Origin: Actinomycetes bacterium
GTDB taxonomy: Bacteria; Actinomycetota; Actinomycetes; Actinomycetales; Microbacteriaceae
Assembly: GCA_023432305.1 (NCBI GenBank)
Contig: JAEYUT010000095.1
Span: 1 to 5,991, forward strand
Direction: 5' to 3'
Length of the DNA: 5,991 bases
Under the pieces are notes generated by a model. That model did no database searches and was not told where the DNA came from. It saw only the letters and a program-made list of their open reading frames with translations. Numbering within the stretch: position 1 is the first letter of the stretch; each line of letters begins with the position of its first letter. This document shows positions 1 through 3,853 of this stretch, one piece after another. A program made the translations under genes and the position numbers.

Positions 1-518
1 CCCTCGTGCGGCGCGTGCGGGAGAGCGCCGATCCGGATGTCGTGAAGCGTCTCGTGCATTTCACCGACGAGCACGGCATCGACACGCTCGCCGAGCTGTG
101 GGCGATGGCAGGCCCGCTGACGCTCCCCGGCGCGCTGTGGCGCATCTACCTTCTGCGCGCGATGATCCTCAGCGACCCGGAGCTGGCGGCGCTGGCGTTC
201 CGGCGCGGCAGTGACGTGCTCACCACGATCGACCCGGTGATCGCGGGCGCTCCCACCCCCGCGGGGCCTGCGGAGGTCGTGGAGCTCGCCGACCGCATCC
301 TGCGCGGGGTGTTCCAGGGCAACTTCGCGCACGCTCTCGAGCGCGCGGCGGCGTTCTGCCGCATCGAGTCGGCAGGGGCTGCGAGCCTTGCGGATGACCA
401 GGATGCGGCCTCCGACACACGCTCCGCGCTGCTCACGACGCGCGCCGCACGACTGGCGACGATGGGCGACGAGCTCGCCGCATCCGCGCGCCTGTCGCGC
501 GAGGACGCCCTCGACTGA
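1..518 (+). CDS. Conserved hypothetical protein, C-terminal part (5' end outside the window)
   Basis: The reading frame is open to the left edge. The GTG at position 6 is probably an internal Val rather than the start, because the frame continues upstream (CTC at 3-5). It ends with TGA at 516-518. The visible 171 or so residues are soluble and probably helical: there is no signal peptide, membrane segment or Cys cluster. A region rich in Leu, Trp and Arg (TLPGALWRIYLLRAMI) is followed by an APTPAGP linker, an FAHALERAAAFCR helix and an acidic, Ala-rich tail. I recognise no catalytic motif. The style resembles short conserved proteins of Microbacteriaceae with no assigned function. From memory, some relatives carry an RNA polymerase beta-subunit label, which this sequence does not support. 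Codon use matches the neighbours. It converges on pstB, so co-transcription with the pst genes is excluded. Coding status is fairly certain; function is unknown. Confidence 0.8.
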   Translation, partial: LVRRVRESADPDVVKRLVHFTDEHGIDTLAELWAMAGPLTLPGALWRIYLLRAMILSDPELAALAFRRGSDVLTTIDPVIAGAPTPAGPAEVVELADRILRGVFQGNFAHALERAAAFCRIESAGAASLADDQDAASDTRSALLTTRAARLATMGDELAASARLSREDALD

Positions 519-554
519 GGCGGGACCGCCGCACCACTGAGCCTTCCCGCAGGG

Positions 555-570
555 GGCCCTGGCAAGGGCC
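555..570 (+). terminator. Possible terminator hairpin of the left-hand gene
   Basis: The sequence ggccct-ggca-agggcc forms a perfect 6-bp GC-rich stem with a 4-base loop, 36 bases past the TGA of the left-hand gene. No T-run follows (tgggtgcgcc). Terminators without a U-tract are common in actinobacteria, but such stems also arise by chance at this GC content, so the call is tentative. Confidence 0.35.
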
Positions 571-717
571 TGGGTGCGCCACGGGGCGGGCGTGGGTCAC
601 GTAGGATTGTCCGGCCGGGCCGCAGTAACCCCGGGCTCCAATTTTCGCCGCTTCGAGCGGCCTTCCGCCGAGAGGCGTTTCTGCGGCTCGGTCTCTCTGG
701 CCCTGCCACCTCGCCCG

Positions 718-930
718 TCCTGCATGAACCCCATCTGTTCTGCAGGAACCCCGAACGGTTATGCAGGAGCCACTATCGGTTATGCAGGAACCTCAGCCGC
801 ATCCTGGTCCAGGTCAACCCCTGGAGGTTGCTGGAACGGTCCGGGACTGCGTGGGATCCTGCACAACAGATCCGGGATCCTGCACTACAGACCAGGGTTC
901 CTGCACAACAGATCCGGGATCCTGCATAAC
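718..930. repeat. Symmetric inverted array of eight 20-21 bp units around a central palindrome
   Basis: Four units run in plus orientation, with their TGCA cores at 721, 741, 762 and 783 (spacing 20, 21, 21). Four run in the opposite orientation, with cores at 860, 881, 902 and 923 (spacing exactly 21). The approximate consensus is GTTRTGCAGGAWCCC followed by about six variable bases, often GGATCT. Facing pairs of units share one centre near 823. That centre is marked by caacc-cctgga-ggttg at 815-830, with cctgg-t-ccagg at 803-813 just beside it. By hand alignment the two arms are roughly 70% complementary over about 80 bases, so either strand could fold into one long imperfect hairpin as RNA. 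The array begins about 33 bases past the pstB stop. Plausible roles are a bidirectional terminator or 3' stabiliser, an array of protein-binding sites on one helix face, or a dispersed intergenic repeat. The structure is directly visible; the role is unknown. Confidence 0.85.
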
Positions 931-932
931 CG

Positions 933-960
933 CAGCGCGGGTCAGCGCGGGTCAGCGCGG
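933..960. repeat. Tandem decamer gtcagcgcgg
   Basis: Two perfect copies of gtcagcgcgg lie at 941-950 and 951-960, preceded by a partial copy, cagcgcgg, at 933-940. A further similar start (gatcag) at 961-966 runs into the pstB stop codon at 963-965. The tract directly joins the inverted array to the end of pstB. It may have grown by slippage. Confidence 0.75.
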
Positions 961-962
961 GA

Positions 963-1742
<780 letters not shown>

Positions 1743-1752
1743 CGGGTTCCCT

Positions 1753-2838
1753 TCAGCGGCCGGTCTTCGGCGCGAAGATCTTCGCGACGAGTCGAGCGAC
1801 CAGGTTGAGCAGCATGACGATGAGGATCAGGGTGAGCGCGCCCGCCCAGGCGCGGTCGAGGGATGAGGTGGGGTCGGTGCCCTGGCTCACATACGAGTTG
1901 TAGACGAACACCGGCAGCGACTGCATGCGGCCGTCGAACAGGTCGGCGTTCATGTTGGCGGTGAAGCCGGCGGTGACGAGCAGCGGAGCCGTCTCGCCGA
2001 TGACGCGCGAGATCGCGAGCATGATGCCGGTCGTGATGCCGGCGATCGAGGTGGGCAGCACGACCTTCACGACCGTGAGCCACTTCGGCACCCCGAGCGC
2101 GAGCGACGCCTCGCGCAGCTCGTTCGGCACGAGCCGCAGCATCTCCTCGCTCGAGCGAACCACCACCGGGATCATGAGCACCGACAGCGCAACCGCGCCC
2201 ACGATCCCCATGCGGGTTCCGGGTCCGAGGATGAGCGCGAACAGAGCGTAGGCGAACAGACCGGCGACGATCGAGGGGATGCCGGTCATCACATCCACGA
2301 AGAAGGTGATAGCGCGCGCGAGCGGTCCGCGTCCGTATTCGACGAGGTAGATCGCGGTGAGGAGCCCGATCGGCACCGAGATGAGGGTGGCGGCGCCCGT
2401 GATGAGGAGGGTGCCCTGGATGGCGTGAAGACCGCCGCCGCCTTCGCCGACGACGTTGCGCATCGACCAGGTGAAGAACTGCAGATCGAAGCGGTTCGCC
2501 CCCCGCGTGATCACGGTGAACAGGAGCGAGATGAGCGGAAGCAGGGCGATCGTGAAGGCGAGCGACACGAGCGCCGTCACCAGGCGGTCGATCGCTCGCC
2601 GCGCGCCCTCCACGAGGCGTGAGGCGATGTAGATCGCGACCGTGTAGAGCAGCACGGCCACGAACACGGTTCCCACGATGTTGAACTCGCCGACGGCGTC
2701 TTCGCTCAGCCACAGGAACAGGAAGAATCCGGCGCTCACCCCGAGGCAGGCCGACAGGATGCTCCATGGGGTTGCGCGGTGCAGGCGCCCGGAGGCGTAC
2801 GCGTTCGCCACGCGGCGGGGGCTCGTCGTCGTGCTCAT
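1753..2838 (-). CDS. pstA: Phosphate ABC transporter permease PstA, with an extended N-terminus
   Basis: One of the two membrane subunits of the phosphate channel. The product has 361 residues, against about 300 in well-studied PstA proteins. Hydrophobic segments lie near residues 25-44, 53-73, 87-110, 143-165, 178-204, 211-229, 262-278 and 333-352. The last six match the usual permease core; the first two look like an added N-terminal pair. The cytoplasmic EAA loop that docks on PstB is at about 232-260 ([19 protein letters not shown]), and [12 protein letters not shown] near 276-287 is a PstA hallmark. The ATG at 2836-2838 shares one base with the pstC stop (TGATG). A GGGAG Shine-Dalgarno at 2846-2850, 7 bases upstream, lies inside pstC. 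This indicates translational coupling and balanced PstC:PstA synthesis. Confidence 0.97.
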
Positions 2839-3791
2839 CAGTTGGCTCCCGAGAAGTCCTTGCGGCGGTTCACGATGAACCGGGCGAACGTGTTGACGAC
2901 GAGGGTGATGGCGAACAGCATGAGGCCGGTCGCGATGAGCACGTTGACGTTGACGCCGTACGCCTCCGGGAAGCTGAGCGCGATGTTGGCGGCGATCGTG
3001 GACGGGTTGGTCGAGCTGATGAGGTTGAAGCTGATCACCCCGGATGCGGAGAGCACCATGGCGACCGCCATCGTCTCGCCGAGCGCACGCCCGAGCCCCA
3101 GCATCGCGGCCGACACGATGCCGCCGCGCGCGAACGGCAGCACGGCCATCGTGATCATCTCCCAGCGGGTCGCGCCGAGCGCGAGCGCCGCCTCCTCATG
3201 CAGCACGGGCGTCTGGAGGAACACTTCGCGGCAGATCGCGGTGATGATCGGGATCACCATGACGGCGAGCACGATGGAGGCGGTGAGGATGGTGCGGCCG
3301 GTTCCCGACGGCGGGCCCGCGAACAGCGGAATCCAGCTGAGGTTCTCCCACAGCCACGTGTAGATGGGCTGCACGCTGCCGGCGAGCACGCTGCCGCCCC
3401 ACAGGCCGAACACGACCGACGGCACCGCGGCGAGCAGGTCGATCACGTACCCCAGGAACGACGCCAGCCGGCGCGGTGCGTAGTGCGAGATGAACAGCGC
3501 GATCCCGATCGACAGCGGCACGGCCATCACGAGCGCGAGGGTCGCTGCCCACAGGGTGCCGAAGATGAGAGGCCACGCGTACGCCCAGATGTTCCGTCCG
3601 CGCAGGATCGACGCATCCGCGGGATCCACGGCGATGCCGGGCGCTCCCTGCAGCAGGAGGAATCCGGTGACGGCGGCGAGCGTCGCGAGGATGAGGGAGC
3701 CGGCGGCGAGCGTCGTCCCGGAGAAGATGCGGTCGCCCGGGCGCTGGTAGGCGCGGACGGCGGTCCGCGGTGCGCTGGCGGTGGACGTCAT
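2838..3791 (-). CDS. pstC: Phosphate ABC transporter permease PstC
   Basis: Partner membrane subunit of PstA in the phosphate channel. The 317-residue length is normal. Membrane segments are visible near 26-48, 74-101, 112-136, 169-188, 226-250 and 286-306, giving the six expected. PstC hallmarks include AAVPSVVFGLWG at 121-132, the EAA loop HEEAALALGATRWEMI at 198-213, and GLGRALGETMAVAMV at 232-246. The ATG at 3789-3791 has only a weak Shine-Dalgarno (AGG, 5 bases away). A tandem 7-base purine-rich repeat (GAGACGA twice, 3801-3814 on the complement) lies 10-23 bases upstream. The gene follows pstS after a 107-base gap containing a strong hairpin, so its transcript level is probably lower than that of pstS. 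Confidence 0.97.
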   Translation of the reverse strand: MTSTASAPRTAVRAYQRPGDRIFSGTTLAAGSLILATLAAVTGFLLLQGAPGIAVDPADASILRGRNIWAYAWPLIFGTLWAATLALVMAVPLSIGIALFISHYAPRRLASFLGYVIDLLAAVPSVVFGLWGGSVLAGSVQPIYTWLWENLSWIPLFAGPPSGTGRTILTASIVLAVMVIPIITAICREVFLQTPVLHEEAALALGATRWEMITMAVLPFARGGIVSAAMLGLGRALGETMAVAMVLSASGVISFNLISSTNPSTIAANIALSFPEAYGVNVNVLIATGLMLFAITLVVNTFARFIVNRRKDFSGAN

Positions 3792-3853
3792 GGGCGCCTG
3801 TCTCGTCTCTCGTCTCGGTGGATGGATCGGGGGGTGGTGCTGTCGTGCGGAAA

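Follow-up and report, generated by a model that had tools for sequence, protein, structure and literature searches.

The window analysed here, the whole stretch of 5,991 nucleotides from a Microbacteriaceae genome, carries a mirrored repeat array in the 519-962 gap between two convergent genes. The upstream gene ends at 518, and its product gave no Pfam match when the six window proteins were scanned. The facing gene, pstB (ABC_tran; 963..1742, minus strand, with its end at 963), belongs to the host context outside the element, and beyond it lie other pst phosphate-transport genes and a NUDIX/phosphatase gene. The initial annotation had placed in this convergent setting an eight-unit array at 718-930, in which TGCAGGA-type units face TCCTGCA-type units in a 21-bp register about a mid-point at 823, with facing pairs that are not perfect complements; all of this is borne out. 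On the plus strand, the left arm consists of a degenerate unit 1 (715..730; core TGCATGA at 721-727, with one mismatch and a 20-bp step to the next unit), unit 2 (CTGTTCTGCAGGAACC, 735..750, core 741-747), unit 3 (CGGTTATGCAGGAGCC, 756..771, core 762-768) and the innermost unit 4 (CGGTTATGCAGGAACC, 777..792, core 783-789), giving core steps of 20, 21 and 21 bp. The centre between the innermost facing cores spans 790..856, the core starts being 74 bp apart. On the minus strand, the right arm begins with its innermost unit 1 (CTGTTGTGCAGGATCC, 854..869, core 857-863), followed by unit 2 (875..890, core 878-884), unit 3 (896..911, core 899-905) and the outermost unit 4 (917..932, core 920-926), all in steps of 21 bp. 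The two arms are 77% complementary over 60 nt. Eight exact TGCAGGA/TCCTGCA words occur in the gap, the one at 718 overlapping the degenerate outer unit. In 2000 dinucleotide-preserving shuffles the count averages 0.08 and never exceeds 2, and the window has no exact word outside the gap. The mirrored polarity and the 21-bp period, as opposed to the one-polarity direct repeats and unique spacers of CRISPR, agree with the earlier view that the array is not CRISPR-like. A search of the window against Rfam at E up to 1 returned only two matches, both below the gathering score and both away from the array, and BLAST of the array against plasmids and phages gave no match.

Two further features share the gap. 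A 10-bp tandem repeat (CAGCGCGGGT, 3.4 copies, 933-967) lies between the array and the pstB stop. The other, at 613-700, is a conserved element some 85 nt long that is preceded by a -10-like box. Searches recover it, at E values of 1e-13 or lower, in 59 of the 60 genomes of the genus nearest by sampled words, and also in all nine genomes of the Homoserinibacter group. It has no Rfam match, either in the window or in seven relatives, and is possibly an undescribed small RNA.

Among the six relatives compared at this locus (G399, G364, G225, G477, G277 and G001), the nearest is G399, a member of the Homoserinibacter/Protaetiibacter group of Microbacteriaceae, with 91% identity over 3850 bp; its pstB locus bears an array of the window's type in the same place, with fewer units. 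G001 is the nearest genome by sampled words, yet its pst region is only 83% identical over 1661 bp, and it shares 1.7% of the 31-letter words of window positions 3-3852, against 15.2% for G399; at the array locus it has a different gene and no array. The pstB loci of G477 and G277 hold arrays of the unit CTGTTGTGCAGGA, those of G364 and G225 hold arrays of another, CATCTCAAGGAGT-like unit, and no array is visible by eye in that of G157. A scan of the genome collection with the upstream protein returned 158 stretches and no confirmed relative. In five relatives (L213, L214, L216, L217 and L220), a further array end, TCCTGCATTTCTGAGG, is located upstream of the small-RNA-like element, so that the locus looks like an array hot spot. 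The pstB gap of G428 (L218) presents a different hairpin, CCCGTTTGTTGCACGCGCGCC and its complement, where relatives carry arrays.

The array belongs to a dispersed family. The G399 chromosome gives 55 single-unit matches, as opposed to one for the reversed-pattern control; 49 of these units are gathered in ten arrays, all inward-facing, and six stand alone. An array occurring only here and varying freely in close relatives had been named beforehand as the sign of chance slippage; instead, an array lies at the matching G399 locus and nine others elsewhere in that genome, and two of the ten flank a DUF559 gene. Related arrays are present in Homoserinibacter gongjuensis, Protaetiibacter mangrovi, a Naasia MAG, Rathayibacter, Cryobacterium, Galbitalea, Microbacterium and others, and the bases 5' of the core vary by lineage (GTTRTGCAGGA, CTGTTGTGCAGGA, CAGAAATGCAGGA, CGAATGCAGGA, GCGGTCTGCAGGA). 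The breadth of the searches depended on the pattern used. A strict two-unit pattern gave no match in 100 relatives, and a second one matched in 4 of 398 genomes, requiring CC two bases after the core and thus missing most unit types. A scan for facing cores 61-76 bp apart gave at least 118 stretches (L082-L199), of which 46 were inspected. Non-actinobacterial and Pseudonocardia pattern matches were dropped, being by eye coding or chance matches, and the matches in L053, L055, L057 and L068 were rejected as arrays, since they lack a facing arm and resemble coding sequence.

The spacing between arms is strongly constrained. In 61 distinct TGCAGGA-type elements, part of which come from the pattern restricted to 61-76 bp (the G399 arrays are not so restricted), the innermost facing core starts are 62-64 bp apart in 48, 65 bp in one, 73-75 bp in seven and at other distances in five. 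This set covers mainly Microbacteriaceae loci and one other actinobacterial MAG, leaves out the Microbacteriaceae loci among L162-L199 and includes two doubtful members, L095 and L138. The step from 63 to 74 bp corresponds to roughly one helical turn, and the arms hold one to six tandem units, mostly in steps of 18-22 bp. The centres are less uniform: the pairs of array centres more similar than the null maximum number 0 of 78 in Naasia, 1 of 55 in G225, 36 of 171 in G364, 16 of 45 in G399 and 4 of 6 in G161. Centres within a genome are thus only partly alike, so that simple copying of whole elements is not established.

Regarding gene context, gene calls from a simple purpose-written caller were used for the 57 arrays in gene-called loci, nine of which stayed unscored (one inside an open frame, six without a near gene call and two at an edge). 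Of the 48 scored, 21 lie in convergent, 22 in co-directional and 5 in divergent gene gaps, as against 11, 42 and 33, respectively, for the background of 86 array-free gaps of 100-500 bp in array loci. Arrays are enriched in convergent gaps and are not confined to them. One G399 array is located inside hrpA, where it is read in frame and adds about 62 residues with a repeated VMQD; it is absent from the HrpA of all eight other genomes of the genus. The HrpA linkers of eight relatives lack the G399 array and are too diverged to define a target-site duplication. In G364, the HrpA linker that corresponds to the G399 array contains a facing CGTTCGGGAGGA pair 58 bp apart, and the same CGTTCGGGAGGA flanks that genome's own DUF559 gene L234, at 59 bp. 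In the G225 linker, a single exact CAACTCAGGAG, which is also the unit of the DUF559 gene L242 in that genome, stands opposite an arm with only CTCAGGAGA in common. Taking the HrpA linker and the pstB locus together, the array type found at a given place differs from one species to another.

Whether selection acts on the unit or on the fold can be judged from the arms. The match between arms is no better within than between elements for G399 plus the window (9 elements, p 0.99), G277 (6, p 0.98), Naasia (13, p 0.87), the G364/G225 type (37, p 0.21) and G477 (9 elements, with two types of unit, p 0.11). In the remaining set, that of the G161 type, the arms do co-vary (7 elements, p 0.016), which counts against selection on each unit. 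The window array folds better than its shuffles on both strands (z -5.7 and -6.5), a behaviour expected of any inverted array. Consequently, of the two kinds of selection proposed in the initial annotation, that acting on the individual unit (a protein-binding site, for instance) is supported by units that are conserved and dispersed and by arms that do not co-vary in five of the six sets, and that on the whole fold finds no support for the window's type. In this type the unit itself is what is kept, and it is likely read as double-stranded DNA.

These data also bear on the proposal that each array forms a long imperfect hairpin and serves as a bidirectional transcription terminator or as a stabiliser of mRNA ends. 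The enrichment in convergent gaps, the good folding of both strands of the window array and the co-varying G161-type arms would all be in line with such a role. Nevertheless, a search for intrinsic terminators, defined as a GC hairpin with a T-tract, gave none in window positions 500-1000, the five arrays between divergent genes and the one in frame inside hrpA do not fit, and the arms of the window's type do not co-vary. Furthermore, a terminator would not predict the match with the flanks of nuclease-family genes described below. The terminator role suggested earlier is accordingly improbable.

The evidence that connects the arrays with a protein comes from the DUF559 genes. In G399, two arrays flank the DUF559 gene beside dapA; H. 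gongjuensis shows the same arrangement, and G277 has an array on one side only. A family search in 10 genomes yielded 25 DUF559 genes; many of them lie between two matching arrays, the array types differ within one genome, and DUF559-type proteins occur in 107 of the 150 Microbacteriaceae genomes searched. The set examined for flanking units comprises 114 DUF559 loci: the 25 above, 29 loci and 60 among the matches listed in the 150-genome Microbacteriaceae search, with two listed matches, G121:C5 (a short frame) and G171:C188, omitted. An identical inward-facing 11-bp unit is present in both flanks of 51 of the 114 genes, compared with 1.4% of 3000 mismatched flank pairs, and a stricter test retains 32 of 114, compared with 1.0% of 12882 mismatched pairs. 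Matches of opposite polarity were found for 5 of the 114. Among 104 control genes in array-bearing loci, the only one with a shared flank unit is itself a DUF559 gene (L045), leaving 0 of 103 other genes flanked. No exact shared flank unit was found for 63 of the 114 DUF559 genes, nor for any of three plasmid copies from Tsukamurella, a member of another order.

The unit follows the protein. In the 51 flanked cases, similar units go with similar DUF559 proteins (Mantel r -0.51, p 0.0002): for pairs of proteins more than 70% identical, the units lie within one mismatch in 7 of 7 cases, and at 25-35% identity this holds for 0.7% of 701. Two unit types other than the window's are abundant mainly or only where a matching DUF559 gene exists. 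The unit CAACTCAGGAG, which flanks the DUF559 genes L239 (G364) and L242 (G225), has 68 copies in G364 and 34 in G225; in 13 other genomes it numbers 8 in G477, 5 in G453, 3 in G173, 2 in G161, 1 in G128 and none in the remaining eight, with reversed controls giving one each in G477 and G230. Neighbouring facing copies are 52-54 bp apart, often as tandem pairs, and the G173 DUF559 gene L265 has a unit near CAACTCAGGAG. The unit GACAGGAAAAACT, found in the flanks of L247 (G161), has 11 copies in G161 and none in 14 other genomes, and its four exact pairs in G161 are all 44 bp apart. In G477 and G453, no CAACTCAGGAG-flanked DUF559 gene was found despite their CAACTCAGGAG copies, and none of the four DUF559 genes found in G364 is accompanied by a unit matching the CATCTCAAGGAGT array at that genome's pstB locus; relics could account for both observations. 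G157 has neither a DUF559 match nor an array at the two loci inspected.

Such a partnership weighs on the alternative that the arrays are miniature inverted-repeat transposable elements (MITEs) moved by an unrelated transposase, with DUF559 genes as frequent cargo. Terminal inverted repeats, a criterion for MITEs, are present in the arrays, and the dispersal and the in-frame HrpA insertion would be expected of them as well. An unrelated transposase, however, does not account for flanking units that among the genes tested are restricted to DUF559 genes, or for a unit type that tracks the similarity of the DUF559 protein, and no target duplication was seen. Taken together, this origin appears very improbable, even more so than that of a terminator.

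The DUF559 proteins themselves are predicted to combine two parts. DUF559 lies above the cut-off in all 10 proteins scanned; the nuclease family MTES_1575 matches all 10, above the cut-off in one, and AbiEi_4 matches 6 of the 10 at E up to 0.1, likewise above the cut-off in one. PADLOC AbiEi models match 4 of 4 DUF559 proteins, and database records name these proteins only as endonuclease-domain, very-short-patch-repair or AbiEi-antitoxin-domain proteins. In an alignment of 62 proteins, the acidic residues E173, D200, E210, D212, D223 and D227 are invariant. For the structure model of the H. gongjuensis protein (L155; pLDDT 94.5), the best PDB matches are 6y8q, the Streptococcus agalactiae AbiEi antitoxin (E 5e-4, TM 0.50 by target), and 3r3p, the I-Bth0305I catalytic domain (E 1e-3, TM 0.77-0.78 by target, rmsd 1.7). 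The prediction is thus of a fusion protein, with an N-terminal AbiEi-like part for DNA binding and a homing-endonuclease-like domain. The second likeness, which concerns the fold of the catalytic domain, comes from a predicted model only, and I-Bth0305I, a homing endonuclease of the EDxHD/Vsr-like class, differs from the DUF559 gene in that the latter is flanked by mirrored repeat arrays; among the loci inspected, no intron or intein context was noticed for the DUF559 genes.

The AbiEi-like part offers a plausible link to the unit length. According to PMC7319586, AbiEi proteins autoregulate by binding inverted repeats, AbiEi binding two repeats of 23 bp and the related Rv2827c binding four; this fits the roughly 21 bp per array unit, and the resemblance to AbiEi operators extends to the predicted DNA-binding part and to inverted repeats of similar length. 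The present system differs from AbiE in its added nuclease-family domain and in its arrays, which flank the gene on either side and are also scattered over the genome. Beside the few DUF559 genes inspected, no AbiEii partner was noticed; in three Tsukamurella records, judged by annotation names only, no AbiEii is named among the annotated neighbours.

The main rival explanation follows from the same likeness, namely that the DUF559 protein is mainly a regulator or chromosome organiser and that the arrays are its dispersed binding sites, maintained by selection rather than multiplied by cutting. It would draw on the autoregulation of AbiEi proteins through inverted repeats, as described in PMC7319586, on the joint variation of unit and protein, on the arms without co-variation in five of six sets and on the strict spacing. 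The retention of arrays at the dapA-DUF559 locus in three species points the same way. On the other hand, a purely regulatory role does not explain why the acidic residues of the nuclease domain are invariant, why an array also lies downstream of the DUF559 gene, away from its promoter, why one array sits inside hrpA, or why arrays favour convergent over divergent gaps against the opposite trend in the background. It is consequently regarded as unlikely, while more credible than either of the two other alternatives.

The best reading of the data is a two-part system comparable to REPIN-RAYT, built on an unrelated nuclease. Since matching repeats flank a nuclease-family gene, its product is likely to bind them and likely to aid their spread. 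On balance, it is probable that the window array is a member of this dispersed family whose DUF559 protein binds the units and cuts DNA in such a way that arrays are copied to new sites. Each DUF559 monomer may bind one 21-bp unit as double-stranded DNA, likely through its AbiEi-like part, and two inward-facing units at a fixed distance would then bring two nuclease domains to the centre. Cutting followed by repair could extend arrays by further units and give rise to new arrays without a gene. The driving unit would be the DUF559 gene with its two arrays, and the window array would represent a passenger copy, tolerated because of its position between convergent genes. The broader proposal, on which the evidence is evenly balanced, is that the AbiEi/homing-endonuclease fusion and its own mirrored arrays form an undescribed class of two-part selfish DNA in actinobacteria, cutting in helical register, seeding gene-free arrays and using a separate array language for each nuclease lineage, with several such systems per chromosome.

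PMC3116915 describes REPINs as extragenic inverted doublets with conserved distances and tandem doublet clusters, with repeats close to a single-copy cognate gene and a proposed co-evolution of gene and repeat. The present arrays are similar in their inverted doublets at constant distance, in their mostly extragenic position and in the placement of a cognate gene beside its own repeat type, here DUF559 (51 of 114) and not a RAYT. They differ in that the gene is an unrelated AbiEi-like/nuclease fusion and in that each arm holds from one to six tandem units. Membership in REP/REPIN-RAYT was considered and rejected: the Y1 transposase (PF01797) was found in 0 of 10 genomes, with the control search positive in 5 of 14 known genomes, and with no Y1 transposase the arrays are not members.

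Rickettsia palindromic elements insert in frame into genes that stay open, and the hrpA array resembles them, by description, in both respects. The present arrays are distinguished from those elements by their link to a nuclease-family gene and by their construction from repeat arrays. The initial annotation knew of no named element of this form, and none was found in the literature: the titles and abstract openings searched describe no DUF559-flanking or mirrored arrays in Microbacteriaceae and no such gene-repeat partnership. If the proposal is correct, DUF559-type proteins would gain a partner and a likely function, and the REPIN-RAYT mode of existence, in which an enzyme gene is accompanied by dispersed passenger repeats, would have arisen again with an unrelated enzyme. 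Taking into account that each protein lineage has its own readable unit, the system provides a natural code for studying the evolution of DNA-binding specificity, and the proposed binding is open to test with one protein and a few DNA probes.

Other mirrored repeats were observed during the inspection of these loci. The Naasia MAG contains a second mirrored-array type (L038, 384-440; L134, 532-611) with the unit CGCTCAGCAGGAG and a shorter centre, and a DUF559 fragment in the same MAG (L237) has a unit matching the CGCTCAGCAGGAG-type arrays on one side. In Microbacterium sp. NIBRBAC000506063 (L187, 4127-4195), another mirrored tandem unit, CCGCCCGATCTGC, is present.
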